Part shown: positions 16,245 to 26,575 of the stretch, one piece after another
Layout of the letters: the number at the start of each line of letters is the position of its first letter
Numbering within the stretch: the stretch's first letter is position 1
Source of the DNA: a virus
DNA length: 41,695 bases
IMG/VR virus record: IMGVR_UViG_3300025276_000067
Coordinates: 1 to 41,695 of that record
Strand: one strand, 5' to 3'
Notes under the pieces: model-generated
Seen by the model: the letters and a program-made list of their open reading frames with translations, nothing else
Database searches by the model: none
What the model was told of the DNA's origin: nothing
Translations under genes and position numbers: made by a program

Positions 16245-16655
16245 TTATAATACTTTAATCATTTCTTTAGTGTAGCTATCTCCTTGAACATAACCCAGCT
16301 CTTCATATGTTTTAATAAGACCATCGTGTTTTATAAGAGCGTATGTGAATTTATTTCCTGCGCTTTGCGCTGCTCTAGTAAGAGCGTCAACTAACAAAGT
16401 TAAAGCAGCCTTTCTATTGACTCTATCAGTATAATCTTTGTTAGAAATAATCCAATCTACCCAAGCTACTTTTGAATTTGTCATATATATAAATCCTGCG
16501 CAAACAGGCGTTTTATCATCATAAACTATTATACCACCTAGTCCATTGTCTGGTAAAAATTCTTTAACGGGTGCTTCCCATTTCCAATCTTTCCACCAAC
16601 CTACTAAAATCTGCTCATAGTCAGACTCTTCAAGTGGTCTAATATTTAATTTCAT
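16245..16655 (-). CDS. GNAT-like N-acetyltransferase, 136 aa
   Basis: The protein starts with an IRPLEESDYEQ segment typical of GNAT N-termini, followed by GGIIVYDDKTPVCAGFIYM (beta2-beta3-like), AWVDWIISNKDY (beta4) and a helix with RKAALTLLVDALTRAA. It ends in FTYALIKHDGLIKTYEELGYVQGD, where Y-E-x-L-G-(Y/F) is a common GNAT ending. The acetyl-CoA-binding Q/RxxGxG/A loop is not clear, so activity is uncertain. GNAT-like genes of this kind occur among phage structural genes, and the acceptor is unknown. A TAnnTTTG box lies 7 bases upstream, hinting at its own promoter. Confidence 0.72.
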   Translation of the reverse strand: MKLNIRPLEESDYEQILVGWWKDWKWEAPVKEFLPDNGLGGIIVYDDKTPVCAGFIYMTNSKVAWVDWIISNKDYTDRVNRKAALTLLVDALTRAAQSAGNKFTYALIKHDGLIKTYEELGYVQGDSYTKEMIKVL

Positions 16656-16677: not shown

Positions 16678-18507
16678 TTAAGGATAGCTTTTCATTACTT
16701 CTGACTCTACTGCAAACAGTTCAGTAGACGTAGTGTCTGTATTTGTTATTGTAAATAAACAGTAATGTCCTAATGTACCATTAGATTCAGCTTGTTGATT
16801 TTTTATATACATAAAATAAGCGTCCTGTATTGGGATAGGAGTATTTGAACCGACAAATGTATTATCAATTACAATACTATTAACATTGTTTTGTAGTTGT
16901 ATATTAATAGCAGAAACTCTTCCAGCCATTTCAATTGTATTATAAGGGGGGAGTGCATAATATAAAATATCTCCTACGCTTATATCGCTGCCAATCGAAA
17001 TAAGAGGACTAGTAGAGAAGTTTACAATAGTACTTGTACCAACTACACTTACCGAACTACTTCTACCTACTCCATTTACTGAGCGTAAAGGATATTCTGT
17101 AGCCTGAGCTGGGTTTGTTCCGTTGTCTCTAACATAAGCAAACCATGCGCCTTCTTTCTTTTCAAACCATGTACTATCAATTGTTGCTCCAGTTTGAATA
17201 TCACTATCTAGTTCGACTGACCAAGAAGAATCTGACTGCAAGCTAATGGTTTTAAATATTTTATTTTCTAAAGGCATTTCGTTAAACACACTCTTTACCT
17301 CAGAGTTGTATTGTACGTTGTAATAATTGTTTCTTGTTGAGTTAGTATTATGTCTATACAGCTCTCCCTTATTAAATGAATAAAAATAATTATTCATTCC
17401 AATCATATAATCAGGATAATAAGAATAAAAAGAAGGCCATCCCTTTACAGTGTCGCTATACGTTAAAGTATATAGCTTAGAGGGGTCTCCTATAGGAGGA
17501 ATAATAGGAGGAGCAATAGAAGGACAAGTGATGTTGTCGTATCTTAAATTATTCTGTCCACCCATGTATCCATGATTGAAACATTCATAACTTAACGTTC
17601 CGTAATCTCCGCTTACTGTTACCGTTACATCTCCGTAAAAATACTCATATGTATTTCCATCTAATCCTGTTTTAGTTCCTCCACTGTAAGTTCCACTATA
17701 ACTTATTAAGCTGGTTTTATTAAAATTTTGAAAAGCAATTGGATGTGTTGAGGGAATATCGTTTAAAACAAATATTCCATTACCAGTTCCATATATACCA
17801 TAATTTCCACCAAAAACATAAACATTAATAAGTCCTATAACCTGGAAAGTTACTGCATTTGTGGAGCTAAAACAATACTGAGGAACAATAGGAACGGGCG
17901 TAGGCGTAGGCGCAACAGGTGTAGGCGTGACCGGAGTAGGCGTAGGCGCAACCGGAGTAGGTGCAACCGGAGTTGGAGCAGGTCCTGAACATATATTATT
18001 TCCTTGACAGTCATATTTATAAGTAACTGTACCTGTGTTTTCAATTAAAAATGTTGCTGTTCCAGTAGCAGGAGTGCTACCTGGAATTGCATTATAATAT
18101 TGATTAGAACCTATAAAAACAGTTGTTAAGTTTTGGTCTTGCCAAAAGTGTTGAGTTCCGCAAACTATGTCATTAACTGTTTGTACGTTTGACCAAACTG
18201 TTTGTGGAGAATATACACAAAAAAGAGGTTTAGTTGAAGAGCCGTTTCCCTGAGCTTGATTAAACTTCCATTCATATGAAGTTACTGGTACTGGAGAAGG
18301 AGGTGTGGGAGGTGAGGGTACGCATTGAGGGCAATTATCGTAGTATGTAGTAGGGCTAACGGAAGTGCCGCTATTCCTAAAAGCGTAAACCGTATAACAT
18401 TCTCCGTACAATAAAACAACCGAATTAAGCTGTACGTTTTGAGGAAAAGTTACATACTGAAAAAATGGAGTATCATCTGTACATTTTCTTAATTCATAAA
18501 AAGCCAT
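16678..18507 (-). CDS. modular tail-fibre protein with PTP-repeat linker and cupredoxin-like domain, 609 aa
   Basis: The protein is built of modules. Residues 1-62 are a Cys-containing module (YELRKC ... GECYTVYA ... NCPQC) almost the same in pattern as residues 234-290 of the neighbouring 383-aa fibre. Residues about 76-170 are a second module related to the C-terminus of the 1604-aa hub protein. Residues about 178-210 are a PTPVAPTP linker. Residues about 250-320 resemble a cupredoxin, with H255, C309, H312 and M315 as possible type-1 copper ligands. The last 270 residues are beta-rich, Ser/Thr/Asn-rich and fibre-like. It is probably a virion surface or receptor-binding protein. A -7 box precedes it. 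The hydroxylase and glycosyltransferase genes lie immediately upstream. Confidence 0.66.
   Translation of the reverse strand: MAFYELRKCTDDTPFFQYVTFPQNVQLNSVVLLYGECYTVYAFRNSGTSVSPTTYYDNCPQCVPSPPTPPSPVPVTSYEWKFNQAQGNGSSTKPLFCVYSPQTVWSNVQTVNDIVCGTQHFWQDQNLTTVFIGSNQYYNAIPGSTPATGTATFLIENTGTVTYKYDCQGNNICSGPAPTPVAPTPVAPTPTPVTPTPVAPTPTPVPIVPQYCFSSTNAVTFQVIGLINVYVFGGNYGIYGTGNGIFVLNDIPSTHPIAFQNFNKTSLISYSGTYSGGTKTGLDGNTYEYFYGDVTVTVSGDYGTLSYECFNHGYMGGQNNLRYDNITCPSIAPPIIPPIGDPSKLYTLTYSDTVKGWPSFYSYYPDYMIGMNNYFYSFNKGELYRHNTNSTRNNYYNVQYNSEVKSVFNEMPLENKIFKTISLQSDSSWSVELDSDIQTGATIDSTWFEKKEGAWFAYVRDNGTNPAQATEYPLRSVNGVGRSSSVSVVGTSTIVNFSTSPLISIGSDISVGDILYYALPPYNTIEMAGRVSAINIQLQNNVNSIVIDNTFVGSNTPIPIQDAYFMYIKNQQAESNGTLGHYCLFTITNTDTTSTELFAVESEVMKSYP
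17889..17975 (-). repeat. short tandem repeat encoding PTPVA units in the 609-aa fibre
   Basis: About 87 bases are made of imperfect 15- and 6-base units (plus-strand form GGTGCAACCGGAGTA and shorter GGCGTA), encoding alternating Pro/Thr/Val/Ala. The G/C content is well above the surrounding sequence. Such repeats can change copy number by slippage without breaking the frame, because the units are multiples of three. Confidence 0.75.
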
Positions 18508-18525
18508 AAGGTGTATATTTAACTA

Positions 18526-18533
18526 CAAATTTA
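18526..18533 (-). promoter_or_regulatory. candidate Bacteroidetes-type -7 box (TAAATTTG)
   Basis: TAAATTTG followed by TAGTTAAAT on the - strand lies 18 bases upstream of the 609-aa fibre start, in the 56-base gap after the glycosyltransferase gene. It matches TAnnTTTG. No -33 TTG is seen, so it is a weak or unconfirmed promoter. Confidence 0.38.
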
Positions 18534-18563
18534 CGAATTTTAACTTAATGAGTTTTTTTTATA

Positions 18564-19394
18564 CTATAATTGAGAAATCCATTTTTTAGCTTGATTGTAA
18601 AATAAATTATTAGGAAAAGTTTCGCTATTTAATTTTAATATTTTATGTTTATCAAATATAGGGTCGCAACTATAATGAGCTAAATAATGTTGTTCTTTTA
18701 ATGTATTTACATTAGGATAGTAACAGTTTCCGCCATCAATCATTTTAATCTTATGATTATGACAAGCTATATTTAAACCGTGCATAGCGCACCACCAAGA
18801 ATGTTGGTTTCCTTTTTCTTTTTCAGTAACTAATTTAGAATATAAAATAATATCATCAATCATACCTTTAATGGTTTTTACTCTACCTATAACATTAAAG
18901 CCTCCATTCATATAGCCTTCGTCATTATGCGTTAAGTAATCAGATATTACCATTCTGTTTTGACTATCAGGTTTTGATATATGCATATGCCAATCCTCAT
19001 AAGTAGCATCAGCAATTACAACATCATAAGGCAGATGATTATAATACTCAGGATGAGGTTTTAAATGAACTAAGTCAGCGTCCATAATTTCAACTACATC
19101 ATCATCCTTAAGAGTTTCTATTATTTGTTTAGCTGCGGTAAAAACATTTATAGGAATGTGCCATTGTTTGTCACTGTCTATATAATCGTAAACTGAATTT
19201 ACCATTTTATAGGGTAGTTTCATGTGCCATTCAACATCTTCAACAGGAGATTCATTAAAATGATTGTATTTTATTATAGGAATAAAAGCCATTTCCTGTG
19301 CCTTTTCTTTATATACCTCTAAATGCTGAAATTGAAAAAAAGATATTTGAGGCTTAAAGAAATCTATGGCTACTGCAATAGGAATACTTATCAT
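18564..19394 (-). CDS. GT-A type glycosyltransferase, hydroxyproline/serine glycosyltransferase-like
   Basis: A 276-aa protein with features of a metal-dependent GT-A glycosyltransferase: a helix then VVEIMDADLVHLKP, where D105-x-D107 would bind Mn2+ and the nucleotide sugar; an acceptor-side EGYMNGGFNVIG segment (159-170); and a late HYLAHYSCDP (236-245), where a histidine could be the third metal ligand. The DxD-x-(V/I)-x-L-(K/R)-P pattern recalls peptidyl serine galactosyltransferases and hydroxyproline O-arabinosyltransferases. It is coupled by ATGA to the prolyl hydroxylase-like gene and flanked by PTP-repeat fibre genes, which suggests that it glycosylates those fibres. The GT call is good, the specific sugar and acceptor are inference, and glycan or LPS modification is an alternative. 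Confidence 0.68.
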   Translation of the reverse strand: MISIPIAVAIDFFKPQISFFQFQHLEVYKEKAQEMAFIPIIKYNHFNESPVEDVEWHMKLPYKMVNSVYDYIDSDKQWHIPINVFTAAKQIIETLKDDDVVEIMDADLVHLKPHPEYYNHLPYDVVIADATYEDWHMHISKPDSQNRMVISDYLTHNDEGYMNGGFNVIGRVKTIKGMIDDIILYSKLVTEKEKGNQHSWWCAMHGLNIACHNHKIKMIDGGNCYYPNVNTLKEQHYLAHYSCDPIFDKHKILKLNSETFPNNLFYNQAKKWISQL

Positions 19395-20560
19395 ACTAAT
19401 TTATAATGAACATAAAAATTTCTATAAAAATTACCCTGGAAAGGAGTCGCTCTTCCATGCTCACAAATAGCAGACTCATAAAGAATCATGTCACCTGGTT
19501 CTGCATAAACTTTATGCCAATTACCTTCATGGTCTTGAATGTCTAATGCCCAATCATCTCCAAATTCTTTATTTTGACATCCGCATCTTAAATCTTTATC
19601 TACTACTATTATAGAAGATACATGATGAGTCTCTACCCTATCAACGTGATTTACTAGAGTAGCTCCCCTTAAATAAGACCTAATTCCATAAACAAAACTA
19701 GGAACAATGTCAACCTTAGCAAACTCTCTATGTATAGGAAATAAATGATTATGAATTAGATTTTTTATAGAAGGTATCTCATCAAAATTTAAAAACTCGC
19801 TTCCTCCTCCTATTATAATATTTTCTTTACCCTCAAAAACCTCTTCTTTAATTGTGCTTTGAAGTAATTTATAGGCATCATTTATAATACCCATGGTTTC
19901 TGGAGGAACTTTTACAACTTTAAATCCTTTTTCTGTTAGCTTAGGTATTTGAGATTTATTAGTATATTTTTTAGGTTTATTTAAATATAAAGTAGTGTCT
20001 TCACCGCCATTCCAAATGTTCTCTCTCCACCAAGAAGTAATTATATATTTTCTTCCCTTCAAAATAGGAACTCCCTCATGCATAGCTTCATCTAAGCAAA
20101 CATTGTTTTCCATATTTTTCCAAGTAAGTCCTTTGCCTGTTTCTGGAGAAATTACTTTTTTTAAATTTACAAAATTAGTTCCACCTCCCTCAAAGTCATC
20201 ATTAAGATAAATCATAAATGTATGCGTTCTATTGCCGCTAGACAAACAATGCTTATCATAAGCTGGTCCACTAAAAAAATCTTGATGTGGTTTAAAGTAT
20301 TGACCCTCTTCATATAGCTGTCCCTGGAGATGCTCTCCTTTTAAAATATCTATACCTAAATAATCTGCTATTTTCTGATGAAAATTTTGAACTTGAGGTA
20401 AAGAATGATTTAAATTAGAAGTACTAGATGTTCTATTTTTAGAGATAGTGCTTATATCATCACCACCTTCCACTACAGCTGATGGAGCGTTATTTTCATC
20501 TATCATTTTAATAAAACTTAAGCATTCCTCCTCACTTAAGAAATTTTTTATTTCAGTCAT
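19391..20560 (-). CDS. two-domain 2-oxoglutarate/Fe(II) oxygenase, prolyl 4-hydroxylase-like
   Basis: The N-terminal domain is a clear prolyl 4-hydroxylase fold: EEGQYFKPHQD gives the H92-x-D94 iron ligands, MIYLND and FEGGGTNF follow, then MHEGVPILKGRKY with H161 as distal iron ligand and K171, ten residues later, as the 2-oxoglutarate-binding lysine. A second oxygenase-like domain (about 215-389) has YLRGATLVNHVDR (H305-x-D307) and CEHGR ... YRNFYVHY (H368, with Arg380 a likely 2OG ligand). P4H enzymes convert peptidyl proline to hydroxyproline with O2 and 2OG. It sits between two Pro-rich fibre genes and is ATGA-coupled to a glycosyltransferase. Domain 1 is secure, and domain 2 is likely. 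The proposed targets, the PTP linkers, are inferred. Confidence 0.87.
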   Translation of the reverse strand: MTEIKNFLSEEECLSFIKMIDENNAPSAVVEGGDDISTISKNRTSSTSNLNHSLPQVQNFHQKIADYLGIDILKGEHLQGQLYEEGQYFKPHQDFFSGPAYDKHCLSSGNRTHTFMIYLNDDFEGGGTNFVNLKKVISPETGKGLTWKNMENNVCLDEAMHEGVPILKGRKYIITSWWRENIWNGGEDTTLYLNKPKKYTNKSQIPKLTEKGFKVVKVPPETMGIINDAYKLLQSTIKEEVFEGKENIIIGGGSEFLNFDEIPSIKNLIHNHLFPIHREFAKVDIVPSFVYGIRSYLRGATLVNHVDRVETHHVSSIIVVDKDLRCGCQNKEFGDDWALDIQDHEGNWHKVYAEPGDMILYESAICEHGRATPFQGNFYRNFYVHYKLV

Positions 20561-20598
20561 TTAATTTAATTTACATAAAAGTAATAATTATTTATTAC

Positions 20599-21750
20599 TT
20601 AACAAGAGCCGCTTTGTACAAACTGAGAACCTGTCCATAATTTCCATTGATTATTTTGTGTAAAATAATATGTTCCACTCATAAGTGTAGTACAGCTACT
20701 GTCAGAATAAACGGCTGTTGCTGAACTTAAAGTTGTTGCATTAAAACTATAAGTTGCAAAACTACCAGAGCAAAGTTGGAAACCTCTCTGTAAATATATT
20801 TGATAACAATTTCCTACGGGTGGCGATGGAGCAACCGGGGTCGGAGGACTCGGAGGACTCGGAGGTGCTGGAGGATTTAAACAATCCGTACAGTTGGTAG
20901 GATAACTTTGAGGGCTTATTGCCGCTCCAGATGAAGCCACTGCATATACCTCCCAACATTGTCCAGCGTAACTTACAGAAGTTCCTAGCTGTGTTGATTG
21001 AGGTAATGTTACATCATAAAGTTGCAGAGTAGTACACTGTCTTAAAGTATAAGCATAAACAATAGGTGCGACAGGAGTCGGAGGACTCGGAGCAACTGGT
21101 GTAGGAGCAGCACAAGAAGCTGCTAAAGTAATTTGACCACTAGCATCTATAAATAAAGCATTGTTTCTGGGCTCATCTAAAAACCATCTGTTATTTCCGT
21201 TAAAAGGAATGGTTAAGGCTGTATTGGTAAATAAATAAGTGCCTACGGAAAAAGTAGAGCCATAAGAAGCGTTTACAACAGCAATGCTTCCTGAGCTAGA
21301 ACAAGCTACGCTTGAAGAGTTCCAACCAGAACCTGAGCCATCATCTCTATATAAAAGAGTAGTATAGGTTGGAGTCGGAGGACTCGGAGCAACTGGTGTA
21401 GGAGCAACTGGTGTAGGTGCAACCGGCGTAGGTGCAACAGGCGTAGGTGCAACCGGAGTAGGTGGATTAGGTGTATTAGGTGTAGGAGGATTCGGAGTAA
21501 CAGGTGTTGGTGCTACTGGATTTGGAACAGCAGGTGGGGGTGTTGGTGCTACTGGAGATGGTGTAGGCGTTGGGACACCACCTGAACAAGCTTGTGATGC
21601 AAATAAAACTCCCGACACTTGTTGTCTTACAATAGCGTCATTAGAATACCATCCATTATTTGCAATTAAAGTTAAAGCAACATCTGTATAAAGAGTTGTT
21701 GCGTTATCAAAACTTGCAGTGTCAAAATAATATGTTCCGTTTGTAGCCAT
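20599..21750 (-). CDS. proline-rich modular tail-fibre protein, 383 aa
   Basis: Four small Cys-containing beta modules are joined by Pro-rich linkers. Residues 6-56, 128-213 and 314-383 share a pattern around Y(T/S)DxxLT followed by a Gly/Asn turn and an aromatic residue, while 234-290 (YTLRQC ... GQCWEVYA ... NCTDC) matches the N-terminus of the 609-aa fibre. The longest linker (about 59-127) is nearly pure PTPVAPTP, with shorter PSPP linkers later. No signal peptide is present. It follows the 1604-aa hub gene by 10 bases, so it is probably a tail appendage attached to the hub. The [T/A/S]-Pro spacing resembles plant hydroxyproline-rich glycoproteins, and a prolyl hydroxylase is encoded next door. 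Confidence 0.68.
   Translation of the reverse strand: MATNGTYYFDTASFDNATTLYTDVALTLIANNGWYSNDAIVRQQVSGVLFASQACSGGVPTPTPSPVAPTPPPAVPNPVAPTPVTPNPPTPNTPNPPTPVAPTPVAPTPVAPTPVAPTPVAPSPPTPTYTTLLYRDDGSGSGWNSSSVACSSSGSIAVVNASYGSTFSVGTYLFTNTALTIPFNGNNRWFLDEPRNNALFIDASGQITLAASCAAPTPVAPSPPTPVAPIVYAYTLRQCTTLQLYDVTLPQSTQLGTSVSYAGQCWEVYAVASSGAAISPQSYPTNCTDCLNPPAPPSPPSPPTPVAPSPPVGNCYQIYLQRGFQLCSGSFATYSFNATTLSSATAVYSDSSCTTLMSGTYYFTQNNQWKLWTGSQFVQSGSC
21370..21575 (-). repeat. tandem DNA repeat encoding PTPVA/PTP units in the 383-aa fibre
   Basis: On the plus strand the 15-base unit GGTGCAACCGGAGTA and close variants (GGAGCAACTGGTGTA, GGTGCAACAGGCGTA) recur about six times in a row, flanked by degenerate PTP/PNP/PPT-coding units. 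Copies differ at synonymous positions. The array keeps frame and could vary in copy number. Confidence 0.8.
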
Positions 21751-21760
21751 TTAATTTATT

Positions 21761-24700
21761 TTAATTGCAGACTCCTGCTGTGTCTATATTTGAGGTTGTA
21801 CCTAAACTTGTCATTCTAAATATGCCTTGAGCTTGACCGTACCCCTGACTAGGTTGTCTTATTCCAAAATAATTATTATTTCCTTGAAATATTTGAGTTC
21901 TTGCAGCGTCTGTGTAAAAAATTGTACTATTAACAAATGCTGTATTAAAAGAACTGGAAGTACTATAAAGGTCTGTTCCCACAAAAGGACAGGTAGATGG
22001 ACTTGTCGTAGTTCCACTTCCAGATTCAATAAGCCATCTGTAAGTTGTTACAGGTGTTGGAACTGGAACTGGAGTTGGTGTTGGAATAGGAGTACATCCC
22101 GTACAAGCATCTTGAGTTCCTGTTGCAGAATAACATAGATTAGAAGATGTTGGTTCTCTATAATCCCAAATTAAATATAAAAATTGACCTCCAGCAGGCA
22201 TTGTAAATGCAGCCGAATATTGAGCTGGAGTAACTTCAGTATATATAGGGGTTATATCTGTAGATGCCGCTAAAAGAGCATTTATATCTGTAGCATTATT
22301 ATTATAAATAATATTACTTCTTAAGTATTTAAACTTGTTTGAAGTTACATTAAAAACAAAATCATCAAATCCTTCTTTTCTGCTAATTAAAGATACTATC
22401 GCTCCATCCCCTGGTATAACACCAGCTCCTTGAGGACCTGCAACTTGACTATATTCAGAAACAATAGGATTAACTGTGCTGCTAGAAAACTGAACTTTAT
22501 TAATATGAGCAGGAGAGAAAAACGACCCATCTGTCCATCTATAGTCATTTGTTATAAACTTACCAGCATCAGAGTTACTGGTAATTGCTATATTAAATAC
22601 CGTCATGTCTACTGACTGAGGACAACCTACATTAATCTCAATTGTGTCAGTTGTAAGGCTATCATGAGAAATAGTTAAAGTTACATCAGTAACATTAACA
22701 TCGTTTTTATTAAAAGTTAATGTTCCACTTTCAAAAACTAATCCCGTTGTGTGACTTCCTCCGTTATATACAGCAGTAATAGTGTACCCAGTTCCAGTAA
22801 GAACTTCTTCAGCCACAATATTTTCTTGAGACAACTCTGTGATTGTAGTTGAATTTAATTCAGTAACAATATCATCAAATCCTTGAAAAGGAATAATGTA
22901 ATCTATGTCAACTAATCCTAACAAATTAGTTAAATCTACACAATAACTAAAACTTTCCCCTGGAGAAAGTATTATGTTTTTTGAAACATCACATTTTAAA
23001 CAATCTTTACTTACTGGTGGTAGTTGAATATTTGAATGCAATACATATTCATTCATGTAAGGGTCAAATCCTCCAAGTTTATGTGTGTTGTTTGACTCTA
23101 TAAATAAATCTCTAAACCAACCTCGCATTCCTGTTTCAGAAATTACTTGAAGTTGTTCTTGTTGAGTGTTACTTCCTATTAGGTTTATAACCGCTCCTCT
23201 TTTAGAATCTGTAAAATATTTATTAGCTCCCCAAGAAACAAAACTTTCCGGATTATTACTTATACCATATTTTTCTGTTCTTGCAATTTGCTGTCCTAAT
23301 ACTTCAGGAACTGAAGCTATAACTCCACCTCCAGTGGAATCACTTATTAAATTTTTCCCAGTTAAAACGTAAGATATTTTATCTTCTTGCAGGGTTAATA
23401 TATCTGTTTTTCTAGCAAACAATACTTGTATAGGACCAAAAGAATCTTCTAATGGTTTAAAATTAAGCAAGCCTAAATTAAACTCATTAAGTTTATTTAC
23501 GTTTGTCTCATCATTGTAGACACCACTGTATGTAAGGTCTGCAAATCTATTTGATTTTTTATAATCAACATTAGATGTAGAAGTTACTCGCTCTCCTATA
23601 TTTAAAGTTTTACCTATAATAGAATCTAATATTTTATAACTTTCTACACCGTTACCAAATGTAAAAGAATCATAAAACCCTGTATTTATTATTGCTGATT
23701 GACTAGAAGTTTGAGTTTGAACATTTCCAGAGTGCATTCCATCAGCGCTTATAGGAAAAGATAAATGGTTTTCATACCAAACATTAGGAAGAGCGTCTGT
23801 AGGCTGTGTTTCAAAAACAACAATAGAATCTGCTCTATATATCTGTATATCAGCAGTAACGGTAGACCGTCTTTTTGCTCTTGATAATGCACCGCTACAT
23901 CTTACAGTACCTGTAATTAGTAGCTCAAGCTTATTGTTTGAAGTGTCTCGGTAAAACTTGTAATAATTAGTTTTTTCCGAAGTAGATATATTTGTAGGTG
24001 AAGTGGCCGTACCAGACTCATAAACATTTAATATACTTCCGGTATCTCCTCCTACTTCTGTAACGGCGTCATCTAATGCTACTTGAGCATTGTCTCCATT
24101 CCACCAATCCTGCATATTGTCATAAGTGGTGGATGAAACAAACTCTACATTTAATTCACTAATTCTTCGTTCACATTTAGCGTTTCCTTTACCAACTCCT
24201 AATCTTTCTTGTCTTATAGATATAACAATTCTACTGCCGGCAGGAACACTATAATCTGTATACGTAGTGCTAGGGCTAACAGGGTCAAGATTCATTGGAT
24301 ATTGCAATATTGGAAAACTGTTTGCGCTGTTTTCAATATCAAATTTAGAACCAGGAGTTATAATGTCATTAACATCATTTACGGTAGAAAAATTATTTGG
24401 ATTAATCTTCATGTAAGTTCCTGCAGGAGATGTAATGTTATCGCCCGATGCATCTTTTAAAAAGTCTGCGGTCTTGGTTTCTTTTTCTAATACAGTTGCT
24501 TCAACACATCTTAAAACAGGCCCATTGCTGTCAGATTTAACAAAAAATCTATCTCCCTCTTCTACTTTATTTGCACTTTCACCTTCTAATAAAAAATATG
24601 TTGCATTGGTTAAAGGGTCTTGATAAAAAATACTAGAATAAATAGTATCATAAGTTGTTTCAGATGGTTTTAAAACAAATTTATACCGAGTCGCCCAACT

Positions 24701-26575
24701 AGGAGCAAATTGTTGTGAAGGTATAATTGTTTGAATAGAGTTTTTAGTAATTGACGCAGAGCATGGTATTTGAACTGTGTTATTAGGACTAACAAGAGCT
24801 GTTGAAGAACGATTAAAACCATCCATATAAACAATACCTATCTCATATCCTCTATTACTATGTAAGCTTTTTGTAGTATCCGTTGTTCTAAAAGTAGCAG
24901 TAGCAGTAATTACCTCATAAAACTCATAAGAATTATTAACTCCATCCACATAATTCATAGATGTTAATTGAAATCCAATTGTATTGCTACCAGGGGTAGT
25001 AATTATAGATATAGGCTGTCCTGATGCTGTAATCCCACTTCCAGTTTTTGCGTAAGTTCCTAAGTTTGCTGGTAAAGCGCAATTTACTTGGTCTGTTAAA
25101 GTGACTCCGCTGCAAGCGTTAGCAACTGTTTGTATGTTAGAAGATGTTCCTATTTTTTCAATAAAATCAGTGCTAGTAGCTAAGGAATAGACATTAAAAA
25201 ATTCTGTAGGAAGAACATATTCAAATATAATAGAGGTGTTTGACGTAGTACTAGAAGGAGTTGTTCCTGTAAATTTATTATGTGTTAAAGTAAAATCTAG
25301 TGTTATGCTTGAACCCGCTTCTAGCTTTAGTATTGTGCCGTTAGTATTAGATAAATCAAAATAAACAATTGAATTATTTATAGTTTCAGCAGTTGGTCCT
25401 ATAGAATATGTTCCTGGACCAGTAGTGTCAATAAGGTCAGATGTAGAAATTTCTTCACTTATTAAATTTGCTGAATACTCTAATTTTAAAGGTTCTCCAA
25501 ATTTATCTTTTAAATCATATCCTTCAGTATAATTACCATAAAATAATCTATTGCCCATTATTGTCTGAGCCTTTGCTAACTGAGGTACATTATCGTAAAG
25601 TCTTAAAATTTCAGAATCAGGAAGCAGTGTGAATATTTTTTTATTATCAAAAGTATATGTATAAGTTTGATTATCTGCATATCCTAAATTAGGCTTATCT
25701 AATCTTTCAATAATTTTAATTGCATTAGTTGTAGATTCTTTAAATAATAATTCTATTTCAACAACTAAAGAGCTACCTGAATTAAAAGAAATAATAGCTG
25801 CATTTTTGGTATTTTTCATACCTTCATTCAAATAACTATTATAGCTAAAATTAAAATTAGAAGGAGTAAAAACTGGCTCACTAAATTGAGATATAGCTGA
25901 GTACTGATTGTCAGCATATTTATACCTGTAAGAAAATGATATAAATCTTTCTTCTAAAAAATTGTCTTCATTGCCAGATACTGTTAAAGCCTGAATGCCT
26001 GGAGACTCAATTGGAGGTCTTTTTATTACTAATAAAGCTTCGGCTGTAAACTGGTCTAGATAATTTAAAGGAATTGAGTATGAAGAATTTACATTTATAA
26101 CTCTAGGAGGATTATAATTATCTGTAAAAAATAATAAATTATCTACTAAGTTAACTCCTGTTATTAAATTAAAGGGACTAAAATTTAATGTAGTATTTAA
26201 ATTATTTCCATCGTTAATACTAACAACATGATATATTGTAGAATTTGTTGTAGTATTATAGGATATAATTAAATCTATTTTGCTAGTATTTCCAACAGTA
26301 AATGCAGGGTCATGTACAAACCAATAGATTGTTTCGTTCGCTCCATCTTCAAAAGCTCCGATGCATCTAGCATTATTACTTAAGGCAATATCTTCAAACA
26401 TTAAAGTAGTAAGAAGAGTGTTTCCTTTTGAATTTTCAACTGAGCCATATTCAGAAGCTTCAGTTGAGCCTAACCTAACATTTAACGCATCAATATATTC
26501 GCCTTGAGGCACAAGCCTTTCGTCAAGGCTTTTATTCATACGTCCTCTTGTAAAATTTCTTTGAATATTTGCCAT
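21761..26575 (-). CDS. tail hub/stabilisation (muzzle-like) protein, 1604 aa, with fibre module at C-terminus
   Basis: The N-terminus shows the signature FTRGRMNKSLDERLVPQGEY.DALN, followed by an ENSKGN segment, which I recognise from the large tail tube/stabilisation proteins of crAss-like phages and other marine podoviruses (in the P22 gp10 position). The body is beta-rich with many Ser/Thr/Asn and no membrane segment. Around residues 1490-1510 there is a PTPTPVPVPTPV linker, and residues 1510-1604 form a Cys-containing module like those in the two downstream fibres, so the hub carries its own appendage domain. It comes directly after the ring-like protein genes, as expected for the distal end of a short tail. 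The hub role is well supported; the C-terminal role is inferred. Confidence 0.78.
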   Translation of the reverse strand: MANIQRNFTRGRMNKSLDERLVPQGEYIDALNVRLGSTEASEYGSVENSKGNTLLTTLMFEDIALSNNARCIGAFEDGANETIYWFVHDPAFTVGNTSKIDLIISYNTTTNSTIYHVVSINDGNNLNTTLNFSPFNLITGVNLVDNLLFFTDNYNPPRVINVNSSYSIPLNYLDQFTAEALLVIKRPPIESPGIQALTVSGNEDNFLEERFISFSYRYKYADNQYSAISQFSEPVFTPSNFNFSYNSYLNEGMKNTKNAAIISFNSGSSLVVEIELLFKESTTNAIKIIERLDKPNLGYADNQTYTYTFDNKKIFTLLPDSEILRLYDNVPQLAKAQTIMGNRLFYGNYTEGYDLKDKFGEPLKLEYSANLISEEISTSDLIDTTGPGTYSIGPTAETINNSIVYFDLSNTNGTILKLEAGSSITLDFTLTHNKFTGTTPSSTTSNTSIIFEYVLPTEFFNVYSLATSTDFIEKIGTSSNIQTVANACSGVTLTDQVNCALPANLGTYAKTGSGITASGQPISIITTPGSNTIGFQLTSMNYVDGVNNSYEFYEVITATATFRTTDTTKSLHSNRGYEIGIVYMDGFNRSSTALVSPNNTVQIPCSASITKNSIQTIIPSQQFAPSWATRYKFVLKPSETTYDTIYSSIFYQDPLTNATYFLLEGESANKVEEGDRFFVKSDSNGPVLRCVEATVLEKETKTADFLKDASGDNITSPAGTYMKINPNNFSTVNDVNDIITPGSKFDIENSANSFPILQYPMNLDPVSPSTTYTDYSVPAGSRIVISIRQERLGVGKGNAKCERRISELNVEFVSSTTYDNMQDWWNGDNAQVALDDAVTEVGGDTGSILNVYESGTATSPTNISTSEKTNYYKFYRDTSNNKLELLITGTVRCSGALSRAKRRSTVTADIQIYRADSIVVFETQPTDALPNVWYENHLSFPISADGMHSGNVQTQTSSQSAIINTGFYDSFTFGNGVESYKILDSIIGKTLNIGERVTSTSNVDYKKSNRFADLTYSGVYNDETNVNKLNEFNLGLLNFKPLEDSFGPIQVLFARKTDILTLQEDKISYVLTGKNLISDSTGGGVIASVPEVLGQQIARTEKYGISNNPESFVSWGANKYFTDSKRGAVINLIGSNTQQEQLQVISETGMRGWFRDLFIESNNTHKLGGFDPYMNEYVLHSNIQLPPVSKDCLKCDVSKNIILSPGESFSYCVDLTNLLGLVDIDYIIPFQGFDDIVTELNSTTITELSQENIVAEEVLTGTGYTITAVYNGGSHTTGLVFESGTLTFNKNDVNVTDVTLTISHDSLTTDTIEINVGCPQSVDMTVFNIAITSNSDAGKFITNDYRWTDGSFFSPAHINKVQFSSSTVNPIVSEYSQVAGPQGAGVIPGDGAIVSLISRKEGFDDFVFNVTSNKFKYLRSNIIYNNNATDINALLAASTDITPIYTEVTPAQYSAAFTMPAGGQFLYLIWDYREPTSSNLCYSATGTQDACTGCTPIPTPTPVPVPTPVTTYRWLIESGSGTTTSPSTCPFVGTDLYSTSSSFNTAFVNSTIFYTDAARTQIFQGNNNYFGIRQPSQGYGQAQGIFRMTSLGTTSNIDTAGVCN

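Follow-up and report, generated by a model that had tools for sequence, protein, structure and literature searches.

The genome segment described here, a 41.7-kb uncultivated virus record (IMG/VR record IMGVR_UViG_3300025276_000067, positions 1 to 41,695; "the window" below means this whole stretch of 41,695 nucleotides), raises the question of what an enzyme resembling the prolyl 4-hydroxylases (P4Hs), coupled to a glycosyltransferase (GT), is doing between the virion protein genes of a marine phage. Our answer is that the locus is probably a phage protein-modification cassette, in which the prolines of neighbouring Pro-rich linkers are hydroxylated and the tail linkers glycosylated. The phage is crAss-like, as seen from a muzzle C-terminal domain (PF25729), a portal protein (phrog_6547) and a TerL (phrog_6681). 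The genes in question lie on the minus strand, as do the domains and linkers given below, and in order of transcription they encode a large virion structural protein of 1604 amino acids (aa) (21761..26575; phrog_14478 virion structural protein, 1.4e-231), a Pro-rich, bead-and-linker virion-type protein of 383 aa whose homologues adjoin the cassette in relatives (20599..21750), a double-domain 2-oxoglutarate (2OG)-Fe(II) oxygenase of 389 aa (19391..20560), a GT-A glycosyltransferase of 276 aa (18564..19394) and a 609-aa virion protein that combines Pro-rich linkers with a C-terminal crAssvirus muzzle domain (16678..18507; PF25729, 1.5e-18). The 383-aa and 609-aa proteins are the putative substrates. 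The stop of the oxygenase gene and the start of the GT gene share four nucleotides (ATGA). An earlier note, made from the sequence alone, had described this arrangement and proposed that the two enzymes modify tail fibre linkers; the observation itself is confirmed, and the interpretation appears partly supported and is strengthened by comparison with related loci.

Pro-rich linkers are confined in the window to three virion proteins, all other open reading frames (ORFs) having at most 7 Pro per 30 aa. The 383-aa protein reaches 15 Pro per 30 aa and carries its main PTPVAPTP linker at residues 59-127 (21370..21576), with a second linker at residues 214-229 (21064..21111) and a third at residues 292-311 (20818..20877). 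The 609-aa protein reaches 13 Pro per 30 aa, with a PTPVAPTP linker at residues 176-209 (17881..17982) and a short VPSPPTPPSPVP linker at residues 63-74 (18286..18321). The further linker that had been noticed in the large upstream protein is present as well, as a short TPIPTPTPVPVPTP stretch at residues 1495-1508 of the 1604 aa (22052..22093). The linkers of the two flanking proteins are as first described, whereas the term "tail fibre" calls for caution: the C-terminus of the 609-aa protein is the muzzle domain, cultured Cellulophaga and Flavobacterium phages have homologues that bear the annotation "structural protein", and "tail/muzzle-associated virion protein" is the safer name. Neither the 1604-aa protein nor the muzzle C-terminal core (residues 346-609; 16681..17472), which served as the basis of the tree and of the comparison loci, had a match among solved structures in PDB sequence and profile searches.

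The oxygenase consists of two 2OG domains, placed by Pfam and PHROG at residues 4-182 and about 206-389, the second of which is an addition to the earlier note; the protein matches PF13640 (2OG-FeII_Oxy_3) at 7.9e-15. Its N-terminal half (residues 1-190; 19991..20560) matches solved prolyl 4-hydroxylases among PDB sequences at 1e-16 as a single sequence and at 2e-32 as a profile. In a ColabFold model (pLDDT 87.8; pTM 0.58, so that the relative placement of the domains is uncertain) the solved structure closest to the N-half is 3gze, a Chlamydomonas P4H with (Ser-Pro)5 (Z 24.4; root-mean-square deviation 2.4 over 180 residues; 27% identity), and the model has the double-stranded beta-helix fold of the P4Hs with the HxD...H iron ligands and a Lys for 2OG. 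The residues named in the earlier note are as claimed and (nearly) invariant, H92, D94 and H161 being kept in 60/60 distinct relatives and K171 in 61/62. Also conserved, by profile alignment, are R43, S45, E76 and R111, the equivalents of Arg93, Ser95, Glu127 and Arg161 of the Chlamydomonas enzyme Cr-P4H-1, which together with Tyr140 (F89 in the phage protein) we take to be its peptide-contact residues. By sequence and structure, the N-half is of P4H type, with the catalytic and four of the five peptide-contact positions kept. The C-terminal domain (residues 206-389; 19394..19945; phrog_2954, 1.5e-15) is catalytically intact as judged by H305-x-D307 and H368, which are kept in 63-66 of 66 relatives, and it also has R370. 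It is the more widely conserved half of the oxygenase and occurs in addition as a stand-alone protein of 188-200 aa (loci L016, L023, L087, L102 and L175). Structural matches of the oxygenase model include PBCV-1 vCPH. PHROG labels the two halves "ferrochelatase" and "DNA endonuclease (V)"; we rejected both names, since sequence and structure are those of 2OG oxygenases, and on families that match 2OG domains they look like annotation errors. The PADLOC defence scan returned a generic 2OG match only.

The glycosyltransferase was correctly recognized as a DxD enzyme of the GT-A type: D105-x-D107 is invariant in 49 distinct relatives, and a ColabFold (AlphaFold2) model built from 14 sequences (pLDDT 89.9, pTM 0.89) has the GT-A fold. 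Its closest structures are the protein glucosyltransferase glycogenin (Z 14.6) and the lipopolysaccharide (LPS) galactosyltransferase LgtC (Z 14.1); mimivirus R699 is also among the structural matches, and no GT95 structure is among those listed. The comparison places the enzyme near GT8-type enzymes generally and picks out no specific donor or acceptor; with glycogenin and LgtC similarly close, the fold alone cannot separate a protein from an LPS acceptor, and an LPS-type structural match, which the earlier note would have counted against its reading, does not settle the matter either way. Searches with the window GT itself against Pfam, NCBIfam, PDB sequences and phage records gave no matches, and a scan of GTDB genomes found no bacterial relatives. 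The resemblance to hydroxyproline O-arabinosyltransferases (HPATs) pointed out in the earlier note is borne out by a curated Pfam model, but only on scanning the GT relatives, several of which lie above the curated cut-off of the HPAT family PF23452 (23.9 bits): L063 (5.2e-8), L015 (1e-6), L023 (1.3e-6), L026 (1.6e-6), L021 (5.8e-6) and L032 (1.3e-5). The HPATs, which are hydroxyproline-directed in plants, founded the family GT95, to which the serine galactosyltransferases of GT96 are related (PMC8012813). No Pfam family other than HPAT was found at E 0.05 for the group A1 GT members. Because relatives pass PF23452 and the window's own copy does not, we call the latter HPAT-like, a name that stops short of a proven GT95 member.

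Pairs of 2OG oxygenases and glycosyltransferases are known for phage DNA, and the locus might accordingly be read as a DNA hypermodification system, in which a base hydroxylated by the oxygenase is then glycosylated by the GT, as happens in TET/JBP-plus-GT phages. TET/JBP families are not matched, however, the Pfam matches being to P4H-type 2OG families only; the oxygenase structure is P4H-like, the GT is HPAT-like, and the genes sit among structural genes, all of which makes this explanation very improbable. We give just as little credence to the idea that the oxygenase, like some bacterial prolyl hydroxylases, acts on a host protein (EF-Tu, for instance) and that the GT works independently. 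A Bacillus P4H that is a close sequence match does modify EF-Tu (PDB title of 5v7y), but the tight coupling to the GT, the location among structural genes and the tracking with linker proteins are not what such a target would lead one to expect.

The oxygenase, the GT and the Pro-rich proteins occur together in other phages as well. Relatives of the GT are encoded in 63 viral loci, with a Pro-rich virion protein adjacent in nearly all, and wherever the upstream sequence suffices the oxygenase precedes the GT with at most two genes between. The ATGA overlap is present as claimed, and where oxygenase and GT genes adjoin directly in other loci it is retained as a rule (40 of 43 junctions). Comparison crAss-like loci were fetched with two other genes as well, for a linker test free of GT bias. 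The comparison covers 98 loci that differ in their muzzle cores. In 48 of them the two linker genes enclose an enzyme cassette, and Pro-rich linkers are found in all of these 48 (12-21 Pro per 30 aa) and in 0 of the 50 cassette-free loci (5-10 Pro per 30 aa); when only loci not fetched via the GT are counted, the figures are 21/21 with and 0/50 without a cassette. The co-occurrence that the earlier note had asked to be surveyed is very strong, with L039/L040 as the exception. On the tree of muzzle cores a single branch (SH-aLRT 76) divides the cassette-bearing from the cassette-free loci.

Support of an independent kind comes from phages with unrelated backbones, in which the pair again adjoins Pro-rich tail proteins. 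Outside the crAss-like phages, the oxygenase-GT pair lies by a tape-measure gene in L032, on a siphovirus-like backbone, and by tail-fibre/baseplate genes in L036, on a T4-like one, and it occurs also in the L016 and L023 groups. Pro-rich genes in the non-crAss phages make up 13 of the 61 genes lying at most two genes from the pair and 0 of the 121 beyond (p 2.6e-7, a value that overstates the case, as near-copies are counted). The L032 linkers, e.g., PTPVPVAPTPVPVAP, closely resemble the crAss ones. A cluster of another composition, 2OG - O-fucosyltransferase - 2OG, is found in the cultured Synechococcus phage S-SCSM1 (L226; 95943-112494; host strain WH7803), accompanied by carbamoyltransferase and GDP-fucose genes, and the tail proteins of this phage have Pro-rich stretches of the PRPQP type and SPTPTPRPSP.

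Further support comes from exchanges of the GT within the cassette-bearing clade, where the cassette class changes 16 times on the muzzle tree; for the HPAT-like class at least 8 changes are forced. The alternatives found in the slot are a PF11397/GT60 enzyme with a radical SAM enzyme, a PF04488 enzyme, and an O-fucosyltransferase (O-FucT) with a carbamoyltransferase; GT60 is absent from the window itself and belongs to sister cassettes (profile matches of 1e-76 in the slot, 1.1e-75 in L131, 1.6e-36 in L113 and 1.4e-28 in L036). Across clades, the X-Pro composition of the linkers tracks the GT class (permutation p 2e-4), being mainly TP with GT60, (T/S)PP with PF04488, AP/VP/SP with O-FucT and mixed TP/VP/AP with HPAT-like enzymes. 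Four cassettes are found among the close relatives of muzzle clade 2 alone, with linkers that are mixed TP/PP/AP in L006/L008, pure TP in L175, (T/S)PP in L174/L169 and AP/VP/SP in L161. Such frequent swapping suggests selection for altering the glycan, and the transferase swaps with linker changes alongside point to a putative tail-modification system of the plant kind, in which hydroxylation would precede glycosylation.

The same compositions bear on whether the sugar is carried by hydroxyproline at all. The linkers might be glycosylated on Thr/Ser, with the 2OG enzymes hydroxylating, e.g., the attached sugar or another side chain; TP is indeed the most frequent X-Pro dipeptide in most classes, and GT60 holds a Trypanosoma polypeptide GlcNAc-transferase besides Skp1 Gnt1 (PMC6939170). 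There are also GT60-only cassettes (L124, L131, L135, L181 and L182) that lack a 2OG enzyme and yet have Pro-rich linkers, so that hydroxylation is not always required. The linkers flanking these cassettes are TPTP with TATP/TVTP. The GT60-only cassettes suggest Thr-directed glycosylation of linkers, and certain relatives may glycosylate without hydroxylation. For the locus as a whole, however, we consider the Thr/Ser explanation unlikely. The N-half is P4H-type with peptide residues like those of Cr-P4H, and the plant HPAT family is hydroxyproline-directed (PMC8012813). The O-FucT class is instructive here, since neither Ala-Pro nor Val-Pro gives a hydroxyl unless the proline is hydroxylated: its X-Pro dipeptides are mostly AP and VP (0.58 together), with few Thr/Ser-Pro, so that hydroxyproline is the likely hydroxyl acceptor.

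Several observations, the GT60-only cassettes among them, weigh against a hydroxylation-glycosylation cassette. The presence or absence of cassette and linkers is one event on the tree, and the 48/0/0/50 table is pseudoreplicated; the Fisher values are therefore no evidence of independent association, and it is for this reason that we draw support from unrelated backbones and GT swapping. L039/L040 have the oxygenase, the GT and a GT60 enzyme, yet none of the proteins encoded in the 63 kb examined is Pro-rich. The predicted GT fold is compatible with an LPS-type acceptor, and the window's own GT has neither a PF23452 nor any other Pfam match. Linkers adjoin the cassette, and block co-transfer could explain their match to the GT class without enzyme specificity. 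Taken further, such points could mean that the linkers serve simply as flexible spacers, and that genes modifying the host surface or polysaccharides have a hot spot of insertion in the slot, the association being one of neighbourhood only: presence and absence is a single tree event, the fold is almost as close to LgtC as to glycogenin, sugar-nucleotide genes are typical of polysaccharide loci, and L039/L040 do without linkers. A P4H would be unexpected in a surface-polysaccharide locus, though, and the oxygenase-GT pair stands beside Pro-rich tail proteins in unrelated backbones, linkers are found in no cassette-free locus and linker composition tracks GT type. We regard the hot-spot explanation as rather less likely still than glycosylation on Thr/Ser.

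Other genes of the slot differ from cassette to cassette. Some cassettes also hold dehydratase, DegT aminotransferase and acetyltransferase genes, which would be suited to special nucleotide-sugar synthesis. L039 (3927-6861), the sole exception for a Pro-rich neighbour, is a 63-kb fragment with an oxygenase, an HPAT-like GT, a GT60 enzyme, an aminotransferase and an acetyltransferase. A radical SAM/SPASM enzyme lies between the 2OG and GT60 enzymes in L113 (11717-12625), L118 (19167-20075), L175, L194, L196, L198 and L205, and may add a further linker modification. Many cassettes have extra genes, G3a and G3b, before or after the GT (L002 and L016-L030, 269-271 aa; L012-L015 and L028-L065, 217-237 aa); these are mutually unrelated, show no relationship to the window GT and have no confident Pfam family, with one weak Glyco_transf_34 match, and are possibly sugar-extending enzymes. 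A 136-aa gene (16245-16655 of the window) comes after the muzzle-domain gene, and its position is conserved in relatives; in MW202828 the gene found there carries the annotation of an N-terminal acetyltransferase subunit.

Returning to the hydroxylation-glycosylation cassette, we envisage that late in infection the oxygenase or oxygenases would 4-hydroxylate prolines of the PTPVAPTP linkers, and that the GT would then move a sugar from a nucleotide sugar onto the new hydroxyproline or onto neighbouring Thr/Ser. The modification would precede or accompany tail assembly and yield glycosylated, polyproline-II-like tail/muzzle linkers, and a speculative benefit would be appendages that are stiff, protease-resistant or receptor-variable. 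A P4H with a hydroxyproline-type GT acting on Pro-rich linkers, as first proposed, has come through the computational tests (the 3gze match, the HPAT link and the co-occurrence) as a plausible prediction, with muzzle/tail-associated virion proteins instead of proven fibres as the putative substrates. A broader proposal, for and against which we find the case evenly balanced, is that hydroxyproline glycosylation forms an exchangeable system in tailed phages: the P4H-type oxygenase would stay constant and mark X-Pro linkers of tail proteins, one of several unrelated GTs (HPAT-like, GT60, O-FucT or PF04488) would add a different sugar, the linkers would co-evolve with the GT as a code, and exchange of the cassette would switch the sugar coat of the tail.

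Plants, algae and some protists are known to O-glycosylate hydroxyproline. The plant and green-algal system, in which P4H and HPAT (GT95) or related GT96 enzymes act on extensin/arabinogalactan-type proteins, is similar in that an algal Ser-Pro enzyme is the best structure for the phage P4H domain, the phage GT is related to HPAT by Pfam and the putative targets are [T/A/V/S]-Pro repeats; the phage cassette differs in its fused double oxygenase, divergent GT and candidate virion-protein targets. The protist Skp1 pathway, in which the GT60 enzyme Gnt1 acts on hydroxyproline produced by the prolyl hydroxylase PhyA (PMC6939170), has the same cytoplasmic hydroxylate-then-glycosylate logic, and sister phage cassettes pair a PF11397/GT60 enzyme with a 2OG enzyme; Skp1 is modified on one proline of one regulatory protein, whereas the phage linkers are long repeats and the window GT is HPAT-like, not GT60. 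Viral parallels are the collagen-modifying enzymes L230/R699 of mimivirus (PMC9546862) and the PBCV-1 prolyl hydroxylase, where virus-encoded 2OG hydroxylases and protein GTs act on viral repeat proteins; those cases concern lysine/collagen in giant viruses of eukaryotes, in contrast to X-Pro linkers and exchangeable GTs in tailed phages. Phage-encoded GTs or 2OG enzymes in the vicinity of structural or sugar genes are likewise a feature of the virion glycosylation already described for phages and of cyanophage 2OG genes, such as the S-SCSM1 cluster. In the open-access papers covered, with subscription papers and preprints outside the search, we found no earlier description of proline hydroxylation coupled to a hydroxyproline-type GT in phages.

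If the proposed modification is real, the chemistry of hydroxyproline O-glycosylation would extend into the bacterial viruses, and a reason would be at hand for the many marine phages that bear 2OG oxygenases. The swappable cassettes with their matching linkers would amount to a ready enzyme-substrate panel for glycobiology and protein engineering, and the phages themselves would have a further route by which to change the surface chemistry of their virions.

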